Source: a virus. Taken from it: a stretch of 25,463 nucleotides of DNA. The translations under genes were made by a program, and so were the position numbers. The first letter of the stretch is position 1, and every line of letters starts with the position of its first letter. Shown piece by piece: positions 3,168 to 19,924 of this stretch. The stretch covers positions 1-25,463 of the IMG/VR virus record IMGVR_UViG_3300025128_000298; one strand, 5' to 3'. The notes beneath the pieces were generated by a model, which worked only from the letters and a program-made list of their open reading frames with translations, had not been told where the DNA came from and made no database searches.

Positions 3168-4700
3168 CTATCCTCCCCCAACTCTATTTAACATTTGAGC
3201 AAAATATCTGTCCTGAGATAAGCCCCAGGGAACTGCCTCTCCTGCCCTTTCGCATATCCATTTTCTGTATGGCTGAACATCTTTGTTCAATAGAATTTTA
3301 TCGCATTTTTCTAGTTTTGGTAAATTATACATATACCCAATAATCATAACGGAAGAATCTGGATTTTCAACGGGAGAGGATATAATCCAGTCTTTTTGTG
3401 ACCAATAAACTCTCAGCCTCATTTCTTCTCTTATTGCCCTGTTGCTTTTTCCTGTTCCTCCACACCAAGGACAAATCGTATGGTCTTTGAAAGGCACTGG
3501 TCCGCCGTCTTTGTATATATTAGAAGACCTTTTTTGTCTAGGGTTATATTTGCAGTTAGGGCAAACCGAGTTTTTGTTGACAGGATATATTAATTGGCAC
3601 GGCTGTCCAGTCGGCCCCTCTATCAATGCGTCTGTTATATATTCGTGAGAAGATATGATTGAGCTTGGTATTGAAAATGTTGGCGTTACTCCATATGTTA
3701 TTTCGGGCTTTACAAAATACTCTAAAGCCCCCATGTCATAGGCTCCGCCTTCTGGTTGTGGGCGGGAAACACCAATTATATCTGTTGTTATATCACCAAT
3801 AGTTTTTCCAAAGTCTCTTGCAACAGAGTTTTTTTTCAGTTTATAGTTATAGTTTTCGGCATCCTGCCATATGTTTTTAGCTCTTTCATTAAGTTGATTA
3901 TTAGTTCCACCAAAATCGTCTGCCGTTCCGTCACTGCTTATGTTGTAGTTAAAAGTTTTAGTTCCAGTGTGGAAAGCGAGTTGGTCGTAAGCGTATGTTA
4001 TAGAATCGCCTCCGCTAGTTACGGCACCTATAATTATGTTATTCTCTACTATTAAGTTTAATGTGCAAGAAGCTACGTTTATAAACCTAAGTCCATAGCT
4101 ATTTAAGCTTCCCTGGTTTCTGACATAAATCGTGTTATTATATACATAAATAGTTGTTACTCCGCTAGAGCCGTCGGCTCCATACAAATACAAGCCAACC
4201 GGCGTTGTGCTTACTGTTCCGTCAATAATAATTATGTTATTTGTTATATAATTAACGCTAGTTGTTCCAGAAGAAGACTGACCCATATAAACAGCATATT
4301 TGAATCTTCCATGTATATAGCAATTATCAATCCTTGCGTCTTTTGCATTGTTAGACGGCAGAAAGTCTATGGCTTTTTGAGAATTATCTGTACCGGATAT
4401 GCGTATGCTATCTATTTGTAGGTAATCCATAGAGCTTTTTATTGGGATTGAAGCGCTTATGTATGCTCCGGAATATCTGTCTGCCCCATGCTTATTGCCT
4501 TCTGCGGCATATATTTTTGGATAGTTGTCAGCGGTTGGAGTTGCAGTCCAGCCAGAAAATTCAACAGCGCCTAAGTTTCCACCAGCATAGCATTCAGCCC
4601 ATTGGTCAGCGCTAGCCTCTCCATCTACAGCGTCTTCCCACAAGGCGAGATTTGTGTAGTCGCCTCCTCCGGCAGGTTTAATTGTTTTTATTGTGGGCAT
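3168..4700 (-). CDS. Beta-helix protein fused to a zinc-ribbon virion domain
   Basis: 510 aa in two parts. Residues 1 to about 330 look like a right-handed beta-helix: repeated short N/D/G-rich strands such as IDNCYIHGRF, VYNNTIYVRN and VENNIIIGAV, plus a C-terminal GAYDMGALEYF that often closes such repeat proteins. Residues 338-510 are a different domain with CPNC (380-383) and CPWC (410-413), a plausible four-Cys zinc ribbon, followed by LRVYWSQKDW and RYFAQMLNRV blocks. The second domain resembles small stand-alone virion proteins found near head-tail genes, so the adhesin-like helix appears fused to it. The gene starts 3 nt after the LamG gene and stops 1 nt before the next ATG. Likely role: surface or tail-associated glycan contact, by inference. 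Confidence 0.6.
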   Translation of the reverse strand: MPTIKTIKPAGGGDYTNLALWEDAVDGEASADQWAECYAGGNLGAVEFSGWTATPTADNYPKIYAAEGNKHGADRYSGAYISASIPIKSSMDYLQIDSIRISGTDNSQKAIDFLPSNNAKDARIDNCYIHGRFKYAVYMGQSSSGTTSVNYITNNIIIIDGTVSTTPVGLYLYGADGSSGVTTIYVYNNTIYVRNQGSLNSYGLRFINVASCTLNLIVENNIIIGAVTSGGDSITYAYDQLAFHTGTKTFNYNISSDGTADDFGGTNNQLNERAKNIWQDAENYNYKLKKNSVARDFGKTIGDITTDIIGVSRPQPEGGAYDMGALEYFVKPEITYGVTPTFSIPSSIISSHEYITDALIEGPTGQPCQLIYPVNKNSVCPNCKYNPRQKRSSNIYKDGGPVPFKDHTICPWCGGTGKSNRAIREEMRLRVYWSQKDWIISSPVENPDSSVMIIGYMYNLPKLEKCDKILLNKDVQPYRKWICERAGEAVPWGLSQDRYFAQMLNRVGGG

Positions 4701-4703
4701 GTT

Positions 4704-5726
4704 TTATCCATGGGTGTCTTGGTTTTGTTTTCTGGATTCAACAAATCTGTCGTTTAATTCGTCAACCTGTACTTGAGCATCAACAGTATCCGTATTATCT
4801 TTTTTCTGAAAATTAATTCCTCCAGCATTAACTGTGATTCCAGCTTGGGTTCTACGATTAGCGGTAATGATTTCATGTAAAACGTCATCTCCTGTAATCG
4901 CGGCTTCGTCTGCCGCTTCTTCTTCACCGCCGCCACCGCCGCCACCGCCGCCTTCTTCTCCAGAAGAGGTAAACGGAATAGTATCAGTTGCCATATAGGT
5001 ATTGGGATAAAAGAAATTAGTTAATCCTGCCGCACCTGCTTGAAACTGATTTGGCGCATAAGTTGGGCTGCTAGTTTCATCTAAGTCATAAGTGTTCATA
5101 ACGTCTCTGTACGCACCCGCCGCTGCAGCGGTGCTTCCAACGTAAGGTCCTCCCATAGGAAAATACGCTCGCATGTTTCCAGGACGAACAAAAAGAGGAG
5201 AAGCTCCGTTATAAAGACTTGTTCTTTCTCCAGCGGTAAGAACTGCATCCCAGGCCGCCCACTCAGCTATCTCTCCATCAAAGTAGTAGGCGCTTCCTGG
5301 ACTTGAAGCAAATGCTTTTCCAATCTTAAAATCAAGACCAGAGGTGCTATGGTCAGAGCTTTTGTTTGAAGTGTGTGATTTTGCTGTGGAGTTATCTACA
5401 TAAAGATTTCTTGAGCCATATTGAAAATCAGCAACAATATGATACCAAGTTATACTATTGGCAGCTATAACTGCGCTTGTACTTGTTTGATAAGAATTAT
5501 GAAATCTAATGCGAAGTTTACCAGAAGATACAGAATAAACACCTAGCCTTCCTGCGCCATTAGAGCCGTCATACTGCTCCCAAATACCGCCGTTTTGCCT
5601 GCCATGTGGCTTAATCCAGCAGGATACAGTGAAACTATAGTCAGTTGCGCTGAACCCGCTAGAGTTTAATATACTTATATTGTCTTTGCCAATACAGTCA
5701 TCTGTGCCGTCAAATATAATACTCAT
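4704..5726 (-). CDS. LamG/concanavalin-like protein with C-terminal module Y
   Basis: 340 aa. Residues about 1-200 have the pattern of a LamG/concanavalin-like jelly roll: FDGTDDCI at the start, FTVSCWIKP, ITWYHIVADFQYGSRNLYVD and FDGEIAEWAAWDAVLTAGER are all typical of that fold. A nine-glycine linker (259-267) flanked by acidic residues leads to a C-terminal segment (about 277-330) that closely matches the separate 68-aa protein encoded at 7376-7582. Such lectin-like domains in phage virions usually bind cell-surface glycans, so a fibre or receptor-contact role is likely. The start codon overlaps the upstream stop (TAATG), which implies coupled translation. Confidence 0.65.
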   Translation of the reverse strand: MSIIFDGTDDCIGKDNISILNSSGFSATDYSFTVSCWIKPHGRQNGGIWEQYDGSNGAGRLGVYSVSSGKLRIRFHNSYQTSTSAVIAANSITWYHIVADFQYGSRNLYVDNSTAKSHTSNKSSDHSTSGLDFKIGKAFASSPGSAYYFDGEIAEWAAWDAVLTAGERTSLYNGASPLFVRPGNMRAYFPMGGPYVGSTAAAAGAYRDVMNTYDLDETSSPTYAPNQFQAGAAGLTNFFYPNTYMATDTIPFTSSGEEGGGGGGGGGEEEAADEAAITGDDVLHEIITANRRTQAGITVNAGGINFQKKDNTDTVDAQVQVDELNDRFVESRKQNQDTHG

Positions 5727-6235
5727 TACGTCTCCTCATATAAAGATATGGACGCAACGTAAACGTCTCCACTGACTCCATCTTCGCTAACATCTCTCAT
5801 GACATTTAGTCTGACTATATCTCCCGCAGCCACACTGTCTTTTGCGGACATAGTAAATGTTAAAATGTCTGGGTGTCCGGCTGTTCCTGGAACGGTTTTA
5901 GTTTGGGCGGTTACGCTTACGTCAAAACCTTGGGCGGCCTCCATGTCTATAGAGTCTCCGTCGGTAATAGCTTCGACCCCAATAATCATTGCTAAGTCGC
6001 CAGATGTTGCGCTAGCAGTATAATAAGCTATATCGCATTTCAACGTTCCGCTGCCAGTGTATTCACTGGGCATAAGAAACATACCAGTTGAAGAGGCTTC
6101 GTCAACAGAATCATCAAAAGCAAGTCCAATTCTACCAAAAGGAGTCGTCCCATGATTAACATAACTTGGACCCGTAGTGGTAAATGATGGACCAAGCGCC
6201 GTAGATGGGAAATTTAATGTAAAGTTTCTAGCCAT
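5726..6235 (-). CDS. Beta-sandwich structural protein (probable fibre or adhesin component)
   Basis: 169 aa starting MARNFTLNFPSTALGP. It is almost all predicted beta strand. The order 'FDDSVDEASSTGMFLMPSEY' (about 40-59), 'TLKCDIAYYTASATSGDLAM', 'DSIDMEAAQGFDV', then 'AAGDIVRLNVMRDVSED' matches a type of domain common in tail-fibre and surface proteins of aquatic phages, where a solvent-exposed sandwich ends in a D-V-Y-V-A strand. No signal peptide is present. The start overlaps the upstream stop as TAATG. Placement in the adhesin cassette supports a host-contact or decoration role, but the exact position in the virion is unknown. Confidence 0.5.
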   Translation of the reverse strand: MARNFTLNFPSTALGPSFTTTGPSYVNHGTTPFGRIGLAFDDSVDEASSTGMFLMPSEYTGSGTLKCDIAYYTASATSGDLAMIIGVEAITDGDSIDMEAAQGFDVSVTAQTKTVPGTAGHPDILTFTMSAKDSVAAGDIVRLNVMRDVSEDGVSGDVYVASISLYEET

Positions 6236-6744
6236 TATCCAATCCCCTTTGCTGTTCGAATTACTACTTGTGGGTCAGCGTCTAGCCACGCGTCAAGATT
6301 TAGCTCCATCGCAGAAACCTCATCTTCCGTAGTCGCGGCGTCAACATTGTCTTGTGCGGCGTAAAGTAAGTCTTGTCCTTGGTCAATCCAAGCGGCGAGC
6401 TGAGAGATATAAGTCACCCTTGCCGTAGTTCCGGCTGCGACTGCCAGTTGAAGAATGAGCAGAAGACTGAGCTTCTCGTCATCCGTATACTTGCTTCTAA
6501 GCGCTTCACCAAGGTCTTCTTTGAATTGGTCTTTTTTATCAGACTTAACTTGAGATAGCCACTCAGCGTCTGCAGAAGCTCTCTCAGTGGGATTTTTAAT
6601 AATAATTGTATTCCCATACACTTTCCAGTGTCGTTTAGGAGAGTCAGGAATAGTTGGATTTATAAGCCATTCGTCAAGGTTATATTCTGGAGTATTTACA
6701 CTCTCAATAACCTCAAGCGTTATTTTATTTACTACTGTTGCCAT
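6235..6744 (-). CDS. Hypothetical virion or tail-fibre accessory protein
   Basis: 169 aa starting MATVVNKITLEVIES. The N-terminal 50 residues look beta-rich with a K-Y/W-K-V-x-G-N pattern (HWKVYGNTIII). The C-terminal part is helical: WLSQVKSDKKDQFKEDLGEAL, then LAAWIDQGQDLLYAAQDNVDAATT and a closing AWLDADP segment. This layout is reminiscent of small tail-fibre accessory or assembly proteins, but I cannot assign a family. It abuts the preceding gene exactly (TAA followed by its ATG) and overlaps the next by one base, so it is part of the coupled cassette. Confidence 0.4.
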   Translation of the reverse strand: MATVVNKITLEVIESVNTPEYNLDEWLINPTIPDSPKRHWKVYGNTIIIKNPTERASADAEWLSQVKSDKKDQFKEDLGEALRSKYTDDEKLSLLLILQLAVAAGTTARVTYISQLAAWIDQGQDLLYAAQDNVDAATTEDEVSAMELNLDAWLDADPQVVIRTAKGIG

Positions 6745-7383
6745 TTATGTACTCCAGCTTTTTAATGGTTCAACTGTTTGTGAAAGGTACTCTTGTATGT
6801 CTGTGGTTTGGTCTCTTCTAAGTGCTGTAGCTGCATGCAAAACAGGATTAGGGGTAAGTATATCCCTATGCTCCTTTATTCCTCTCTCATGTGGCTCTCT
6901 CTTATCTATGCCCCTCTCTTCGATATAAATAACTAAATCATCTGCGGCTAAAAAATTAGCCTCTACTTCTGGGTCAAAAACGTCGTCTGTCTCGCTTTGG
7001 GGTAAATTGTCAAAATCAAAATGAAGAACGCTTCTGTTTGTCATCGAAGTTTGGAAAATAAGCTCGCCTTCTGGAGAAATAGACTGAACACCATTATCGT
7101 CTTCAACAGGCTCTGTAACAATCTCGCAAAAAGGAAAGTCTACAGTTGGGTTGGGCTCGCCCCACTCTTTTTTCTTATTCAAGATGGCAAGAGCAAGAGC
7201 AGCGGATTGAAGCTCTACAACTGAAGCGTTATTTCCTGGCCAAGTTACAACTTGATGCACTTTTAACTCTTGGCTTCCCCACTTGCCTCCAGCAAGCCTA
7301 CAAGTAATAACGTCGCCTCTTCTTTTGATGCCTTTTTCTCCTTGGCGTCTAACAGAAACCATAAGCTCTATTTCATTAGACAT
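6745..7383 (-). CDS. Virion protein with module X, copy 2
   Basis: 212 aa from the ATG at 7383 (MSNEIELMVSVRRQGEKG), chosen because GGAG lies about 9 nt upstream and the gene then overlaps the previous stop by only 8 nt. Residues 20-48 (KRRGDVITC ... WGSQEL ... VHQVVTW) repeat the N-terminal domain of the protein at 7582-8187, with about 16 of 30 aligned positions identical. The rest is unrelated: an acidic middle (NLPQSETDDVFDPEVEANF) and a C-terminus with HAATALRRDQTTD. No enzymatic motif is seen. It is probably a structural protein of the head-tail junction or fibre base, judged only from its neighbours. Confidence 0.5.
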   Translation of the reverse strand: MSNEIELMVSVRRQGEKGIKRRGDVITCRLAGGKWGSQELKVHQVVTWPGNNASVVELQSAALALAILNKKKEWGEPNPTVDFPFCEIVTEPVEDDNGVQSISPEGELIFQTSMTNRSVLHFDFDNLPQSETDDVFDPEVEANFLAADDLVIYIEERGIDKREPHERGIKEHRDILTPNPVLHAATALRRDQTTDIQEYLSQTVEPLKSWST

Positions 7384-7582
7384 TATATCGGTCTCCATGA
7401 GTTTTGACAAACTTATTGTCTAATTCATCTATAGCGTTTTGAGACTCCGGAATCTCCTGCCCTCTTCTGCCGCTAAAGCTTATTCCTCCAGCATTCATTT
7501 TCATTCCAGCTTCAATTCTTCTGTTTGCAGGAATAATTTCTGTAATTACATCGCTACCGCTAAGTGCGTTTTCTCCAGCCAT
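7376..7582 (-). CDS. Small virion-cassette protein, stand-alone module Y
   Basis: 68 aa starting MAGENALSGSDVITEI, with GGAGG about 11 nt before the ATG and a TAATG overlap with the upstream stop. Residues 6-36 match the C-terminal module of the LamG protein at 19 of 31 positions, including ANRR, AG and NAGGI. A second short match, DELDNKFV, aligns with DELNDRFV. The protein is therefore a conserved module used alone here and as a fusion tail elsewhere. It could be an assembly tag, trimerisation segment or docking domain. I do not recognise a named family. Confidence 0.55.
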   Translation of the reverse strand: MAGENALSGSDVITEIIPANRRIEAGMKMNAGGISFSGRRGQEIPESQNAIDELDNKFVKTHGDRYNV

Positions 7583-8187
7583 TATTCTTCAACCTCCAAA
7601 AATTTGCCATCAATAATTTCTATTGAAACCCCATCTAACTCAAGCTGTTTTTTTATTTTGTTCAACGCTTTTATTATTTCTTGGGTGTCTGTAATATTAT
7701 CTTTGTCTGACATTCTTTTTTCTAGTAATTTTCTAGTCTCAGACTTGTTTGATTCAAACTCTTCTAATATTTGCTCTTCAGTTTTATTTTTTATTAATGA
7801 TTCAAAACCATTTATCTCAACCGCAGCTCCATTTCCTATCACTTGGTTTTTAATGTTAATATCTTGAATAGCGTCTATATCCAAATACTTTCTAGACCTA
7901 GTTTTAGCAACATCAACTTTAGCTAAACGATATCCGGAAGTATTAATGAACTCGACCTCTTCCGACTCTGAATACGGCGTTATTCTTACAGGCGCAGAAC
8001 CAGTGTTGGAATATTCTAGTCTCATTTCTGATTCTAGTTCCTCGTCAATCCAATCAACGGGCTGATGTACTCTAATTTCGAGAGCACCCCAATATGCGAA
8101 CTCTTTAAGTTTAACACATATAACGTCGCCTCTTCTTTTCCCATCGTAAGACGACGAGTCTTTAGTTCTAATAAGCGCTTGTAACAT
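7582..8187 (-). CDS. Virion protein with module X, copy 1
   Basis: 201 aa starting MLQALIRTKDSSSYDG. Residues 17-46 carry the KRRGDVICVKL ... YWGALEIRVHQPVDW block that recurs in the protein encoded at 6745-7383. A central beta-rich part is followed by a charged helical C-terminus (about 125-185, KNKTEEQILEEFESNKSETR and TQEIIKALNKIKKQLE) likely to form a coiled coil. It is translationally coupled to both neighbours by TAATG junctions. The family resembles small structural proteins found between capsid and tail genes in aquatic phages. Function is unknown. Confidence 0.5.
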   Translation of the reverse strand: MLQALIRTKDSSSYDGKRRGDVICVKLKEFAYWGALEIRVHQPVDWIDEELESEMRLEYSNTGSAPVRITPYSESEEVEFINTSGYRLAKVDVAKTRSRKYLDIDAIQDINIKNQVIGNGAAVEINGFESLIKNKTEEQILEEFESNKSETRKLLEKRMSDKDNITDTQEIIKALNKIKKQLELDGVSIEIIDGKFLEVEE

Positions 8188-8687
8188 TATTCATACCAAA
8201 TGGTTACCCAGCCTCTGTTGTAGCTGGTTGAGTCAAAATCAGAAGAATCAAAGCTTCCGCTAGTTTTTCTAACAAGCACAACTTTTTTATTTGTAATTCC
8301 AGAAACAGCAATGGAAACATTTGTCATCTCTGCTGCGCCAGTGTTTGTTTTAGTGTCGTTATAGTATATTGTGTCTGCGTCATTTCTGATTACAATACCT
8401 ACATCTCTAGTTCCCTTCCATGTGTCTGAATATTCTAGACCATGGTCTACTTTAACAGAACCGCTGGTATCCATATTCCAATCACCAATGTTGACCGTTG
8501 TTCTTCTAAGTCCGTAGTCGTCAAACTTTGTTTGAAGCTGACCAGAAGCCCTGGTTGCAAAATCAAGTTCTGCAACTTTTGAGTTAACATTTACGTCAAT
8601 TCGTTGCGTGTCTCCAAATTTATTTAGGGAAACAATGCCGTCTCTGTTGTTGTATCCATCTCCTGTATTTATTTTTTCTATTGGCAT
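8187..8687 (-). CDS. Beta-rich structural protein (fibre-like domain)
   Basis: 166 aa starting MPIEKINTGDGYNNRDG, with GGAG about 11 nt before the ATG. The N-terminus (about 1-60) is a short collar containing RIDVNVNSKVAELDF. From about 67 onward a compact domain begins with IGDWNMDTSGSVKVDHGL, continues with DVGIVIRNDADTIYYN, and ends FDSTSYNRGWVTIWYE. That ordered set of blocks is a pattern I associate with small virion or fibre proteins in diverse phages, where the terminal G-W-V/I-T-I strand closes a beta-sandwich. It is likely a head-tail-proximal fibre or decoration component. Confidence 0.5.
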   Translation of the reverse strand: MPIEKINTGDGYNNRDGIVSLNKFGDTQRIDVNVNSKVAELDFATRASGQLQTKFDDYGLRRTTVNIGDWNMDTSGSVKVDHGLEYSDTWKGTRDVGIVIRNDADTIYYNDTKTNTGAAEMTNVSIAVSGITNKKVVLVRKTSGSFDSSDFDSTSYNRGWVTIWYE

Positions 8688-9338: not shown

Positions 9339-10355
9339 TTACAGCGAGCCAAGAATAACGCGACGGTTATCCAAAACAGCAAAGCCATGCTCTGCAAAGC
9401 CATAAAAACCAGCTCTACGCTGACGGTGAAGATTATCATCTTCAAAGACCTGAACGTTCTCTCGTACCGGACGCACAAACGAATCGTTTGAGCTGAGGTC
9501 GAGGCCAACAACAAGCTCAACGTCAGAAGCCTGAAGGCTTCCGCTGAGTTCGCTCTTGTAGAAGTTCTGGTACTCTTGACCAACACCAAGCTCATCAATG
9601 TCATGGAGGTTGACCGAGAAGATGCGAGTTACAGAAGCAGCTCCGTCATCAGCCGTATAAATTTCACGGCGAGTAACCTCATCGACTTGGTCTACACCCC
9701 AGTTACGAATATCTTCGATAGCTTCGGGCGACACATAAAGGTCGGTGAGTTTACCACGGTTAATGCTGCTGGAGTTTCCTCCACCATTACGTCTCATAAC
9801 GGTCTTCAAAAGCGAAACAAGTCGCTTCGTGAACTGACCGGCTGCGGCGTCAGCGTCGTAAACCAAAATATTTCGGTCAACGCCAGCGGCCAACAGCGTA
9901 TGCCAAGCATCATCATTCGTCTTCTTGACAAAACTCGACTGAAGAACCTGAAGGGCTCTGCTCACGATATCCCAGCGGGCGTCGCGTGCATAGCGAAGGG
10001 TCCAGTCAATACTCGAGCCAATCTCGAAAGTCGGAATCATGACATAATCGCCTTCCACGTAACGCTCGGGAATTCGACCATGATTAGGAATGCTATAAGC
10101 AACAAAATCTTTTTCAGTGCCAGGAGCAAGAAAATCCAAAGGAAATTCAGGCGTAGCACCGGGCTCCAACGAAATAGTTTCGTAGATGTTGCCCGTAATA
10201 TCTCCGCTCATAACGCCTTGACGCAGAGGCTCTTGAAGTGCAACAGCAAGCTGATGCGTAGCCTCGAGCGACTCGGCTCGATTTGCGGAACCGCTTTGCT
10301 TAAGCAGAGCAGTCATTTCAGGCGAGGGAGCGCTAATAACGTCTTTTTTACTCAT
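9339..10355 (-). CDS. Major capsid protein (HK97-fold, probable)
   Basis: 338 aa starting MSKKDVISAPSPEMTALLKQ, with AAGGAG 10 nt before the ATG. The order of genes (protease/scaffold, decoration protein, this one, terminator, adaptor) is the usual place of the major capsid protein. An N-terminal helical arm is followed by an E-loop-like beta region (PEFPLDFLAPGTEKDF, then IPTFEIGSSIDWTLRYARDA). A long central helix (DIVSRALQVLQSSFVKKTND) looks like a spine helix, and a C-terminal beta segment contains QVFEDDNLHRQRRAGFYGF. Codons are strongly optimised: the stretches I translated use ATT/ATC for Ile and mostly CGN for Arg, unlike the AT-rich neighbours. The HK97 fold is inferred rather than proven. 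Confidence 0.8.
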   Translation of the reverse strand: MSKKDVISAPSPEMTALLKQSGSANRAESLEATHQLAVALQEPLRQGVMSGDITGNIYETISLEPGATPEFPLDFLAPGTEKDFVAYSIPNHGRIPERYVEGDYVMIPTFEIGSSIDWTLRYARDARWDIVSRALQVLQSSFVKKTNDDAWHTLLAAGVDRNILVYDADAAAGQFTKRLVSLLKTVMRRNGGGNSSSINRGKLTDLYVSPEAIEDIRNWGVDQVDEVTRREIYTADDGAASVTRIFSVNLHDIDELGVGQEYQNFYKSELSGSLQASDVELVVGLDLSSNDSFVRPVRENVQVFEDDNLHRQRRAGFYGFAEHGFAVLDNRRVILGSL

Positions 10356-14838: not shown

Positions 14839-16890
14839 TTATCTACGTCTTACCCCAATACCATAAACCCCATTCATTTTTTTAACTAAGTGGTCTGGTC
14901 CGGTGTAAAGTTGCCCCCCTCGTTTTTCTTTATTTTGTTGCGCATAACCGCCTGTAAATTTATGTTCTTGACCCTCAAGCTGGTTAGATAATGTGTGGCA
15001 CACTTCGTTCGCCATCAAAAGTGCTGAGTACCTGTCTTTTCTGAGCCTGCCCTTTTTTCCTCCAGCCTCAACAGTCTGTGGCGTATCCCATTTGTCTCGT
15101 CCGCTAGAGGTTTGACTGTGTTCTATTGTAGCTAACTCGTCCTTTAAAGACTCTATTTCCATTACGCAATCCTCTAGGGTGTCGTAATGTCTTTCCGATA
15201 ATTTGTCGTCTGTTATTGCTTCTGATAGCAGAACGGTATCAAATTTAGGGAATAATAAACTTTGAGTTTCGAGGTCTTTTCTTAGATTGTGGTTTGCTTT
15301 AAATGTAAACTCGGATTTTGCAAATTGAATCATATGAAGTATATGCAAACCAGCTTCGCCGTCTGTTGGTTTATCTTTTGACTCCCAATAAAAAGGGTCT
15401 TTGTCGTCATGTTTTACATAGGGCCATACTGGTTTTTCTCCATCTCTAAGTGTGTTTTTATCGTGTAGAGCTTCCATTATTGCTATTCCGCCGCCCTGAG
15501 CATCGATGGCTATATTATTTGTTGGGAATATTTTCATAAGGTCTAATATTTTTCTGGCGCAATAAGTATAAAAACTTTCTAGGTTTGACTCTTTCTTTGT
15601 TTTTATCCTCTCTCTCATAACTTGTCTGCTGCAAGTCCATACATAAACAACTCTGCTGTGGTCGTCGTTTTTTTCTAAAACAACTATAGAAAAATTATCG
15701 TTTTCAGAAGCTGGGTCAATTCCGTAGACATATTTTTTATTAGGATTTCCAACAATCATAGAATCAAAAGAAACCTCTTCTCCAGAGGTAGAGGTTACAG
15801 GATTGTTAGTAACGCATCTTTCAACCAAACTTCTTCTAAAAAATCCCTCCGAGTCTTTTGCAAAACAGGCCTCGTACTCCATGTCATATCTAGAAGAATG
15901 CAACATAGCTTTAGCTTGTGCTAGCTGCGACTTATCCATAAATCCTTCCGGCAACAAACCTTCAGGTATTCTCATTACAGAGTATTGCGTCCAATCAAAA
16001 CCGTCTGGTATCTGGCCCTTAAATACGTGTTCCTCTAAATACTTTTCATCTCCTTTACTACGCACAATCTCCCTTTGTCTTACAAAATATTCATAAAAAT
16101 GATTAAAGGCGTAGTAAGCTGTTCCAGCTATAATTGTTTGGTTTCCAAATCCAAGCTCTCCTTCAATTTCTTGAGCCTCTTGATACATGCCAAGTTCTTT
16201 AAGTTTTTGTATCTGAGCGTATTCTTTGACCTTATCTGCGGGGTTTGCGGAGACCGCACCAAAACCTTTAATAACGACTTCGAATATTTCTTGAGGAATA
16301 GATGCGAATTCGTCAGCAATAATATAGTTCGCACGTAGACCACGGATTTTAGAGCCGTCGCCAAGAGGAATTGCTATGATTTCACTTTTGCCAACATAAA
16401 AAGTGCATCTATCAATATCTCGTTTTGGCCCTTGACCTTTCGATGCCCCAACCATATTTGCAAAAACTGGAGAGTTCTTGTAAAATGTTTCCATGTACTC
16501 AAATAGAAGCTTAGACTGTCTAAAGGCTGCGCCAATGACGATAATTTTGCATCCCTGCATAAAGAAAGCTCTAAGTAAAGAATACAATGCTAGAATCCAT
16601 GTTTTACCAGCTCCACGAGTTGCAATAAGCATTGGAAATTTTCTGGTCCAAAGTTCTTGGAGTATGCATAGCTGAAATGGTAATAGGTCTACATTTAAAA
16701 GGTATTTGCATGTAAACCAGAAGTTTTCTGGCTTAGACATGAAGTCTAAGAATTCCATTACAGGATTATCGTAGTCTTTGCTCTTTGATATTAATTCATT
16801 GCCTACATTGATTTTTTCTATATCACCTATATTGAGGTGAGCGTGCCTGAGTAGGCTTTCAATGTGGTCTTTGTTATTTTTTTGAGTCAT
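14839..16890 (-). CDS. terL: Terminase large subunit (ATPase and nuclease)
   Basis: 683 aa from the ATG at 16890 (MTQKNNKDHIESLLRH). An upstream in-frame start at 16956 would overlap the nuclease gene by 83 nt, so the nearer ATG (17-nt overlap) is preferred. The ATPase half has Walker A TRGAGKTW (91-98), Walker B with YIIADEF (189-195) and a coupling motif IIAGTA (253-258). The RNase H-like nuclease half has three acidic positions expected for metal binding: GIDPAS (Asp392), IAIDAQGGG (Asp463) and KDRYSALL (Asp619). All motifs are intact. The enzyme docks on the portal, pumps DNA into the prohead and cuts concatemers. The layout is T4 gp17-like. Confidence 0.95.
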   Translation of the reverse strand: MTQKNNKDHIESLLRHAHLNIGDIEKINVGNELISKSKDYDNPVMEFLDFMSKPENFWFTCKYLLNVDLLPFQLCILQELWTRKFPMLIATRGAGKTWILALYSLLRAFFMQGCKIIVIGAAFRQSKLLFEYMETFYKNSPVFANMVGASKGQGPKRDIDRCTFYVGKSEIIAIPLGDGSKIRGLRANYIIADEFASIPQEIFEVVIKGFGAVSANPADKVKEYAQIQKLKELGMYQEAQEIEGELGFGNQTIIAGTAYYAFNHFYEYFVRQREIVRSKGDEKYLEEHVFKGQIPDGFDWTQYSVMRIPEGLLPEGFMDKSQLAQAKAMLHSSRYDMEYEACFAKDSEGFFRRSLVERCVTNNPVTSTSGEEVSFDSMIVGNPNKKYVYGIDPASENDNFSIVVLEKNDDHSRVVYVWTCSRQVMRERIKTKKESNLESFYTYCARKILDLMKIFPTNNIAIDAQGGGIAIMEALHDKNTLRDGEKPVWPYVKHDDKDPFYWESKDKPTDGEAGLHILHMIQFAKSEFTFKANHNLRKDLETQSLLFPKFDTVLLSEAITDDKLSERHYDTLEDCVMEIESLKDELATIEHSQTSSGRDKWDTPQTVEAGGKKGRLRKDRYSALLMANEVCHTLSNQLEGQEHKFTGGYAQQNKEKRGGQLYTGPDHLVKKMNGVYGIGVRRR

Positions 16891-17365
16891 GTTTAGACTG
16901 AGACTCCATGAATCTTTTGAAGATGCTTGAACAAACTTCTTTTGCGTATTTTCCACAAAAAATGAATGGAACGTCGTATTTCTTTTGTAGCTCTAGTATT
17001 CTCTTTAAAAAAAACGGACCTCTTACTTTCATGTATTTTCTTTTGTACGCCGGTATTTTGCTTCCTTTTGGAAACTCTACGACATCTTTCATTTCAAACT
17101 CTAGTAAAACGTATCTCCATGGAAAGTCAAGCATTCTCTCAAGCTCCCTTTCGAATCTTGGCTGTGTTATGTTTGTGGCTAATTCTGACACGTTTCCTTT
17201 TCTTTCTATGCATATGTGATTTTCATACCCATACAAAGTATAGTCTCCAGTCTTTATTGTCTGTTCTTCTGTGCCAGCGCAATAACCAGACTGAGTAAAT
17301 TCCCATCCGTCTTTTTCTCTAGTGTCTCTGTATACTAGATAAGGGTCGTATTTTTCTTTGGACAT
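16874..17365 (-). CDS. ERCC4-type nuclease
   Basis: 163 aa starting MSKEKYDPYLVYRDTREKDG. It contains the XPF/ERCC4 nuclease signature: DTRE (Asp14, Arg16, Glu17), GDYTL (40-44) and IERKGNVSEL (53-62, the ERKxxxD-type core with a Ser in place of the last acidic residue), followed by RFERELERM. Such small phage nucleases are structure-specific or restriction-like enzymes acting on branched or damaged DNA. Here it sits directly before TerL, overlapping its start by 17 nt, and overlaps the dehydratase stop by 31 nt. A role in resolving branched concatemers before packaging is a reasonable inference. No helicase or HhH domain is fused. Confidence 0.8.
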   Translation of the reverse strand: MSKEKYDPYLVYRDTREKDGWEFTQSGYCAGTEEQTIKTGDYTLYGYENHICIERKGNVSELATNITQPRFERELERMLDFPWRYVLLEFEMKDVVEFPKGSKIPAYKRKYMKVRGPFFLKRILELQKKYDVPFIFCGKYAKEVCSSIFKRFMESQSKHDSKK

Positions 17366-18402
17366 GATTTGCTTATGTCGTGCTCTACCATTCTTTTAAC
17401 CATTTCATTGAAGGGTGTTTCTACGGTCCATCCAATCTCATTCTTTGCTTTGTTGGCGTCTCCGTGTAAAAACTCTACCTCCGCAGGCCTATAAAATTTA
17501 GGGTCAACAACAACTAGGTTTTCCCATTCTTTTATGCCTATAAAGTCAAAAGCTATTCTAACAAAATCCCTAACGGTTCTGCTAGTTCCGGTAGCTATAA
17601 CATAATCCTCTGCTTGTTCTTGTTGTAACATCATCCACATCGCCTTGACATAATCTGGAGCATAACCCCAATCTCTGGCCGCGTCCAAATTTCCTAGCCG
17701 CAGTTTTGGAAAACTTTCCTCTGGATTCATTACAGAAAGTATATTGTCTGGGTCAGAAACTGCGTCGAATGGTTTGTTTTCACCGGTCATCCAGCTTCTA
17801 AATTCAGCCACCCATTTCGTAATCTTTCTGCTTACAAACTTCTCGCCTCGTCTTTCACTCTCATGATTAAACAAAATACCGCTACAAGCGTACATACCAT
17901 ATGCTTCTCTGTATATTCTAACCTTATGGTGGGACGCAAGCTTTGCTATAGCGTATGGAGATTGCGGTTCAAAGGGAGTCGTTTCTCTTTGATACCCGTC
18001 AGGGTCAACAGAGCTTCCAAACATTTCAGACGTACTAGCTTGATAAAATTTAGCATTAAAAGAATGCCTTCTAACTGATTCAATAATGTTCAACGGACCT
18101 TCTGCATCAACCCTCCATGTATGCAGCGGTTCGTTAAAAGACGTAGCTACATGAGACTGAGCCGCAAGGTTATAAACTTCGTCTGGCTGAAAGTCGTTAA
18201 TAATCGAAGACACACTGATGAAATCAGTTACGTCTCCTTCGATTAGAGTAAAGTCTTTATTCTCTACTAGGTGCTTTAATCTTTCTGTGTTGTTTGTGCT
18301 TGCCCTGCGATTAACCCCAAGAACCTTGTATCCTTTTTCTAAAAGAAGTTCAGACAGATAAGAGCCGTCTTGTCCTGTAACCCCAAATATAATAGCTTTC
18401 AT
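17335..18402 (-). CDS. gmd: GDP-mannose 4,6-dehydratase
   Basis: 355 aa, full length for the family. The NAD(P)-binding motif is GVTGQDGSYL (7-16). The active-site set is STSEMFG (123-129) and Tyr150/Lys154 of YAIAK, and the family hallmark GILFNHESERRGEKFV lies at 175-190. The enzyme converts GDP-mannose to GDP-4-keto-6-deoxymannose, precursor of GDP-fucose, GDP-rhamnose or aminosugars. The ATG abuts the sulfotransferase stop (TAAATG) with AAGGA upstream. The gene stands between candidate small and large terminase genes, an unusual place for sugar metabolism. It may remodel host surface polysaccharide or supply sugar for virion glycans. No epimerase-reductase gene is visible here to complete the path. 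Confidence 0.95.
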   Translation of the reverse strand: MKAIIFGVTGQDGSYLSELLLEKGYKVLGVNRRASTNNTERLKHLVENKDFTLIEGDVTDFISVSSIINDFQPDEVYNLAAQSHVATSFNEPLHTWRVDAEGPLNIIESVRRHSFNAKFYQASTSEMFGSSVDPDGYQRETTPFEPQSPYAIAKLASHHKVRIYREAYGMYACSGILFNHESERRGEKFVSRKITKWVAEFRSWMTGENKPFDAVSDPDNILSVMNPEESFPKLRLGNLDAARDWGYAPDYVKAMWMMLQQEQAEDYVIATGTSRTVRDFVRIAFDFIGIKEWENLVVVDPKFYRPAEVEFLHGDANKAKNEIGWTVETPFNEMVKRMVEHDISKSCPKKNTTLI

Positions 18403-19122
18403 TTAGTCCATATCCTTATGTAGTTCGATTTCTTCACCGTATATTTCATGTATGAGTTTTAAGTCTTCTTCGTCATAATAATCAAAATAATTAAAATTTT
18501 CGCTTGTGTTTTGCATTAAAATAGAGAGTGAGTTTGTAGGATTTCTAGGGTCTTGATTGTCTTTCATAAATCCTGGAGGTCCGATAGTCTTTTTGAACTT
18601 ATCCCACTCTTTGTTAATTTTGTCAAAATTTAAAATTTTACAAGATGCTTCCGCCCCATCTATTGTTTTAGTCCACCAGTCAAGTTTTTCAATGCTGTGT
18701 ACGTCAAGGATTATCTTTTCATTTTCATCATAAACCTTATTATCTTTAATATTGGTAAAATCTTCATTGAAATATTTTTTTATGTTTTTCAAATAAGTTT
18801 TAAAATCTGTTGGTAGTATATCTTTGTTGGAAATCGACTGTTGATGAAGACTATAGTGGGTGCTTGCTATTCTTTCTATCGGGTTTCTTAGTACGAAGAA
18901 TATAGTATACTTTTTTGCTTCCCACGATGAAATTTGCATTTCTCTTAAATTTTGAAAAATAGGAAAAGAATACTTTTCATAGTGATACTCAAATCCTCTA
19001 TACCCTTTCTTTGCAAATTTTTGCCAAGACCTGAAATACAATTTTAGCAAAACCTGTTGTATGCTAGCTCCCGCTGCTCTGGGTATGTGTAAGAAAATTA
19101 AATCAAGCTCTTTACTAATCAT
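18403..19122 (-). CDS. Sulfotransferase (carbohydrate-type, PAPS-dependent)
   Basis: 239 aa from the ATG at 19122 (MISKELDLIFLHIPRAAG), which overlaps the previous stop by 8 nt. The 5'-phosphosulfate loop is HIPRAAGAS (12-20), with Arg where many relatives have Lys; Arg also occurs in bacterial members. The 3'-phosphate motif is VLRNPIERIAS (77-87). The remainder is lysine- and aromatic-rich (KKYFNEDF, NYFDYYDEEDL). No signal peptide or membrane helix is present, so it acts in the cytoplasm, probably moving sulfate from PAPS to a sugar. The next gene makes a deoxyhexose precursor, so sulfation of a fucose- or rhamnose-containing glycan is a possible joint product. This gene is more AT-rich than its neighbours, which suggests separate acquisition. 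Confidence 0.75.
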   Translation of the reverse strand: MISKELDLIFLHIPRAAGASIQQVLLKLYFRSWQKFAKKGYRGFEYHYEKYSFPIFQNLREMQISSWEAKKYTIFFVLRNPIERIASTHYSLHQQSISNKDILPTDFKTYLKNIKKYFNEDFTNIKDNKVYDENEKIILDVHSIEKLDWWTKTIDGAEASCKILNFDKINKEWDKFKKTIGPPGFMKDNQDPRNPTNSLSILMQNTSENFNYFDYYDEEDLKLIHEIYGEEIELHKDMD

Positions 19123-19924
19123 TTTCTTCTTGCTCCCCTTCAAGCTCTGCTTCTGGCGTAAGCCATACTTTATCAACCTCACCATCAGCAAAAACCATCT
19201 CCTGCTTCATTTGCCCCTGTTTCGTTTTTGCTGCCTCATACACTAATCCGGTCATTCTTCCCTCAGTTTCACGCATCTTCTGCTCATCAAGAAGCTTAAT
19301 AAGTGCAAATATATTCTTACCTGATTCTTCCACAGTTTTAAGCCGCTCATTTCTCGTTGCCTTGAGGTCTTTGAATTTTCCGTCTTTTGTTTTCTTAATT
19401 TCATTTATCTCTTTTGTGTAAGCCTCGGATGTCCCTCGAAGCTGGACTATCGTACGCAAAGCATTGGTCATGAAGTCGGTGTCACGGTCATCCATGTCCT
19501 TCTCCCTCTCTTCTGCTAGAAGCTTCTCGTTCTCTCTTATTTCCTCTAATATGTTCTTTTTCTGCTCCAAAGCTCGATGCAGCAATATGTCTTCAATTAT
19601 AACATCCTTCATCATTATCTCGTCAGTCGCAGTAACGCCCTGATGAAAGAATTGGGAATAGAGAGAAGCCCAACTGTTTTCAAACGTTTCTATTTCGTCA
19701 TTTAACAAGCTTTTTTTAACGGTTGACCAGAAATGCTTTGAATGAAGCTGGGATATGTATGTTTGCAGCTCTATATTAGCGTTCTCTTGAGGCGCAACGC
19801 TTCTTCTTTGCGTAATTGCTTCAACGCTTCTGTCGAGCTTTACCGCTATTTGAGAGTCTGTCATGCTTGACAAATTGGCGTCTATGTAAGCTATTTCTTC
19901 TTTGCTAAGTCGACCAGTCTTCAT
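19115..19924 (-). CDS. HTH and coiled-coil protein, candidate small terminase subunit
   Basis: 269 aa starting MKTGRLSKEEIAYIDANL, with its ATG inside the end of the sigma gene (20-nt overlap) and a GGTGGAAG just before it. Residues about 5-40 form a Myb/SANT- or TerS-like helix-turn-helix (LSKEEIAYIDANLSSMTDSQ, then IAVKLDRSVEAITQRR). The rest is almost wholly helical with strong charged heptads (KKNILEEIRENEKLLAEERE; about 180-225) and an acidic C-terminus. The DNA-binding N-terminus, oligomerising coiled coil and position in the packaging operon upstream of TerL fit a small terminase. The three intervening genes (sulfotransferase, dehydratase, nuclease) make the pairing less direct. A transcription factor is the alternative. 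Confidence 0.5.
   Translation of the reverse strand: MKTGRLSKEEIAYIDANLSSMTDSQIAVKLDRSVEAITQRRSVAPQENANIELQTYISQLHSKHFWSTVKKSLLNDEIETFENSWASLYSQFFHQGVTATDEIMMKDVIIEDILLHRALEQKKNILEEIRENEKLLAEEREKDMDDRDTDFMTNALRTIVQLRGTSEAYTKEINEIKKTKDGKFKDLKATRNERLKTVEESGKNIFALIKLLDEQKMRETEGRMTGLVYEAAKTKQGQMKQEMVFADGEVDKVWLTPEAELEGEQEEND

Follow-up and report, generated by a model that had tools for sequence, protein, structure and literature searches.

An uncultivated tailed phage encodes, between its major capsid gene and its tail genes, two small protein modules, here called X and Y, that are each present twice and probably help to attach interchangeable adhesins to the virion. At the sequence level, this reading draws on the evident duplication of both modules, a change of partner by Y and the position of X beside adhesin genes in two otherwise dissimilar phage groups. 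The more specific proposal, in which the block forms part of a modular adhesion apparatus with X as its adapter and Y as a mounting module for exchangeable adhesins, is plausible and held with middling confidence.

The window, that is, the whole 25.5-kb virus record analyzed here, covers the head-neck-tail region of the phage. Its minus strand encodes a large terminase, recognized by a weak Terminase_6N match and by matches to annotated terminases of Bacillus phages, and, judged by position, a likely portal, protease/scaffold and decoration protein. The major capsid protein (MCP; 9339..10355, minus strand) is distantly related to gp27 of phage G (E=2e-6) and is the upstream anchor of a variable region. 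After it, the minus strand reads g170, g166, X1, Y1, X2, g169a, g169b, LamG-Y2, a beta-helix+four-Cys protein, g216, g336 and a tube-like protein with weak similarity to Phage_tube_2. The protein g166 (8187..8687) combines a C-terminal domain with an N-terminal part of ~58 aa, whose relative in other lineages is a free protein of ~60 aa. X1 (7582..8187, 201 aa) consists of an X domain of about 130 aa and a variable C-terminal tail, Y1 (7376..7582, 68 aa) is the Y module standing alone, and X2 (6745..7383, 212 aa), whose ATG at 7383 lies within the end of Y1 in an 8-nt overlap, joins the X domain to a conserved C-terminal part. The coordinates of the X and Y genes agree with those in the preliminary description of this DNA. 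Next, g169a (6235..6744) is a conserved protein of unknown function that occurs only in LamG-type cassettes, and g169b (5726..6235) resembles the C-terminus of a large fibre discussed below. LamG-Y2 (4704..5726, 340 aa) comprises a Laminin_G_3 domain (aa 25-167), a Gly/Glu-rich linker and the C-terminal Y2 (about aa 270-332); its match to PF13385, at 62.8 bits against a Pfam gathering cut-off of 27.6, assigns this domain to the Laminin_G_3/ConA-like lectin type. The following protein (3168..4700) carries a beta-helix-type N-terminal region, recognized by a weak Pfam match, and continues into a fused four-Cys core protein, which other lineages encode unfused (164-179 aa); attempts at naming this core protein gave no identity. 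Outside the block, a GDP-mannose 4,6-dehydratase-type gene and a Sulfotransfer_2 gene are located near the terminase (17335-19191), and a relative, L112, has an apparent larger sugar-nucleotide cluster past its tail genes; possibly, these sugar genes serve glycan modification by the phage. A protein with an ERCC4-type nuclease domain (16874-17365) overlaps the start of the terminase gene.

The preliminary description had proposed that Y1 recurs at the C-terminus of the LamG protein and that X1 and X2 share a module. Profile comparison bears out both proposals, with the X copies and the Y copies significantly similar and far above shuffled sequences. Y1 and the LamG C-terminus are identical at 27/60 positions (45%, E=6e-17) and reach a Smith-Waterman score of 141, against a mean of 29 (sd 4.6, maximum 52) in 2000 shuffles. 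For X1 and X2, 16/30 residues are identical (E=1e-7) and the score is 77, compared with a shuffled mean of 32 (sd 5.0, maximum 64). These were the only clear pairs when the 17 window proteins were compared all-against-all; a similarity between Y1 and g336 (E=0.001) was taken as chance, and g336 was not found by the Y profile. Profile and cross-species comparisons extend the X homology beyond the 30-residue motif to about 130 residues: hhalign aligned 91 columns (E=5e-7), and the X1 proteins of the relatives L007 and L013 matched residues 20-157 (E=2.6e-6) and 1-151 (E=5e-9) of the window's X2, respectively. The most constant parts of X are an A-L-I-R start in X1-type copies, GD(V/I)I, WG..E...H...W and, later, P-Y/P-F and R-S. 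Searches of PHROGs, Pfam, PDB sequences and a phage collection returned no usable match for X or Y, and relatives were found in metagenome records only, with none among isolated phages. In plasmids no X was found, and a narrow pattern filter applied to bacterial genome contigs confirmed no relative of MCP or X. A structure model of X2 with moderate confidence (pLDDT 65) gave nothing credible in a fold search, and the model of Y was poor (pLDDT 53, pTM 0.22). A relationship between Y and the ~60-aa core protein of other lineages was considered and rejected.

The complete order X1-Y1-X2-g169a-g169b-LamG+Y, first described for the window, also occurs in five IMG/VR relatives (L001, L002, L006, L007 and L008), of which L007 and L008 are nearly identical and both counted. 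Their records (47-149 kb) each contain exactly two X and two Y, all inside the cassette. Identity to the window is 85-90% for X2, 80-96% for g169a (up to 97% by tblastn), 80-83% for g169b and 78-81% for LamG-Y2, and drops to only 47-51% for X1, one of the most variable genes of the cassette block, and to 38-41% for g216. The suggestion that X-Y pairs bracket variable genes therefore fails in the close clade: the genes from X2 to LamG are 78-97% identical in all five relatives, and at this distance the modules enclose no variable genes. Genes previously read as inserted variable adhesins are stable here, and X1 is the part that changes. Separately, the record of L001 encodes a further beta-helix-like protein (L111:9874-12798, 975 aa, start MARPKIRTIRASTHPLGTGDFTTIQAWEDF), located past a very long tape-measure-like ORF.

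Among deeper relatives, Y is found on a second kind of adhesin. In L022, X1 and X2 are followed by a 453-aa beta-helix protein ending in Y and then by the beta-helix+four-Cys protein, and the cassette has no Y1, g169a, g169b or LamG gene. In L020, the closest to the window by head genes, X1 is followed by a beta-helix gene whose start is present and which is similar to the beta-helix-Y gene of L022. Y is attached to LamG in five relatives and to a beta-helix in L022, and it also stands alone as Y1; on adhesins it is always C-terminal, after a linker that differs in length and composition. A terminal module is thereby shared by different adhesin bodies, and, judged from these contexts, Y appears to be a detachable, linker-tethered C-terminal module able to change partners. 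That the block is a docking scheme for exchangeable adhesins, as originally suggested, is the best reading of a Y that changes partner between LamG and beta-helix. Alternatively, Y could be an oligomerization or folding module at the adhesin C-terminus rather than a virion-docking module. Its placement at the C-terminal end of LamG and beta-helix proteins alike would agree with this, as would the poor prediction of the lone chain, which is expected of an obligate oligomer. However, standalone Y1, without any adhesin body, is kept in the five close relatives at 64-74% identity to the window, and we consider the oligomerization role unlikely.

These relatives also bear on how the cassette arose. 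The preliminary description had explained its layout by a single tandem X-Y duplication, into which receptor-binding genes were inserted and in which a lectin was fused to the second Y. The X-Y-X-...-Y order of six genomes, window included, is compatible with such a history, and loss of Y1 in L013 and L022 is conceivable. Yet in both of these genomes X1 and X2 adjoin without a Y between them (in L013 the LamG gene is cut at the contig end, before the expected start of Y), the Y of L022 sits on a beta-helix and not on LamG, and an unrelated phage, L106, carries two X-adhesin pairs with no Y found. In the X tree, X1s and X2s form separate groups and L013 and L022 are represented in each, so the duplication of X is older than the split between L022 and the window. 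In the head-gene tree L022 groups with L013/L019, though head genes may have a history other than that of the cassette. In the Y tree, the copy of L022 is a long branch that falls between the Y1 and Y2 groups; this tree gives no date for the duplication of Y, and Y1 may have been either gained or lost. A single tandem event of this kind is very improbable.

The association of X with adhesins extends beyond the MCP family. L106, a 68-kb contig found with the X1 profile, has two X genes, each located directly before a gene for a beta-helix adhesin starting IKPAGGGDYT, the first of which (1074 aa) also includes a Laminin_G_3 domain. The record shows no match to the window's MCP family, and nothing in the 38 kb compared matches the clade except X, the beta-helix and a sugar-epimerase-type gene. 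The finding of X with a beta-helix in a phage that shares so little else suggests that X moves together with its adhesin, and the two appear to form a recurring pair, at another place in another phage group. X likewise lies directly 5' of an adhesin in L020, before the beta-helix start, and in L022, where X2 precedes the beta-helix-Y gene; in LamG-type cassettes, two genes separate X2 from LamG, and X1 is followed by Y1, not by an adhesin. Judged by gene order, X goes with adhesin genes, one of which it usually precedes immediately. The view of X and Y as a pair holds for the five close relatives, in which they co-occur, but not for L106, with X and no detectable Y, or for L022, with two X and one Y.

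X might instead be an assembly chaperone of the adjoining adhesin that does not stay in the virion, with Y still tethering the adhesin. Fibre chaperones are usually small proteins encoded beside fibre or adhesin genes, and X is a small protein encoded beside different adhesins. The known Tfa-type genes, however, lie 3' of the adhesin, unlike X, which lies 5' of it. In addition, X has no Tfa family match, no Pfam family and no convincing PHROG, and X2 is conserved as strongly as the structural genes. A chaperone role is possible but doubtful, and an adapter that remains in the particle is the preferred reading of X.

The surrounding region was compared across the wider MCP family, for which 576 matched stretches of viral contigs encoding MCP relatives were obtained and 80 loci kept. 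The order MCP, g170, four-Cys protein, g216, g336 and tube is conserved, while the content of the interval from MCP to the four-Cys protein ranges from next to nothing (L062, L063) up to several large fibre-like ORFs. Within this family, no lineage outside the window's clade showed X, Y or full-length g166; the clade itself is small, comprising seven to nine lineages, of which several come from related samples. Other lineages (L034-L092) encode adjacent fibres with a common N-terminal 50-125 residues and differing bodies, e.g. L053:11771-13165 and L053:13241-17059; in those tested, the common N-terminus is Mtd_N (PF18454), which is present in fibres of L037, L092 and L053 and absent from the window's cassette. 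Additionally, 66/365 variable-region ORFs end exactly in (G/C)G(S/T)P compared with 0/1279 other ORFs, with near-identical loci counted more than once. This C-terminal tag occurs on a protein of 70-125 aa and, in about 25 loci (several near-identical), on an adjoining large fibre as well; tagged loci range from L029 to L093, as in L092:13300-13527 and L092:13552-15177. Fusions are found too: g166 joins a ~60-aa protein known alone elsewhere to a further domain, and in L053 a 1272-aa fibre with a g169b-like C-terminus is followed by a LamG gene, as g169b is in the window. Taken together, the fibre N-termini, the (G/C)G(S/T)P tags and the g166, four-Cys and g169b fusions indicate that sharing and swapping of terminal modules is habitual between MCP and the four-Cys protein.

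This background also bears on another explanation, which takes X and Y for common structural paralogs of the neck or tail and the fusion of Y to LamG for an incidental decoration, with nothing exchangeable. The location between capsid and tail genes and the fixed gene order in the close clade would fit. Against it stand the attachment of Y to another type of adhesin in L022, the X genes beside adhesins in an unrelated phage and the lack of X and Y in the rest of the MCP family, which make this explanation quite unlikely.

In the mounting scheme that we prefer, the stretch from the major capsid gene to the tail genes would encode a modular adhesion apparatus. X would most likely be a small adapter, encoded directly 5' of the adhesin gene, that joins the adhesin to the virion. 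Y, as a short linker-tethered C-terminal module, would hold the adhesin (LamG, or the beta-helix in L022) in the virion; we infer this tethering because Y is C-terminal, joined by a linker and also kept as a bare protein. Standalone Y1 probably fills or forms the same kind of site as Y2, and the resulting assemblies would be mixtures in which Y2 carries an adhesin and Y1 does not. Virion location, docking, the adapter role of X and the co-assembly of Y1 with Y2 are all put forward here as readings of sequence. A broader generalization is more speculative: this widespread uncultivated phage group may mount interchangeable adhesins near the capsid-tail junction via short terminal tags, free tag proteins (Y1 and the 70-125 aa (G/C)G(S/T)P proteins) may tune the number of adhesin-bearing sites, and X-adhesin pairs may move between unrelated phages as units. 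If the mounting scheme is right, a simple sequence rule would follow, namely a free small protein together with an adhesin bearing the same terminal tag, and X just 5' of an adhesin. Applied to abundant uncultivated phages, in which hardly any structural genes are annotated, such a rule would locate adhesins together with the parts that mount them; the virion-docking tag would also be testable using small recombinant proteins.

Comparable designs are known. Phages K1-5, G7C, KP32 and phiK64-1 mount exchangeable adhesins by shared short modules or an adapter protein (PMC6872550), and the X/Y cassette resembles these anchor/adapter systems in its shared short modules or adapter and in its divergent adhesin genes within a conserved structural background. 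There, however, the shared module is N-terminal with a T4 gp10-like branch point, whereas Y is C-terminal and also exists as a free protein; no T4 gp10-like branching domain was found by Pfam or PHROGs in X, Y or the cassette proteins, a comparison that remote folds could escape. The 936 lactococcal phages carry carbohydrate-binding decorations on Dit, the tail-protein extension TpeX and the neck passage structure (PMC6669499). As in the cassette, a structural module occurs there in a bare form and in one with an added carbohydrate-binding domain, and adhesins sit on neck and tail. In those phages, however, programmed frameshifting within a single gene yields the long form of the tail protein, whereas here each form has a gene of its own, and no sequence relation to their decorations was found. 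Within the wider MCP family, the adjacent Mtd_N fibres (PF18454), which share an N-terminus, offer a parallel for a shared terminal module, although X and Y are not Mtd_N. The X/Y cassette, while not a member of the anchor/adapter or 936 systems by sequence, appears to work like them and is likely a variant of this known modular receptor-binding design.
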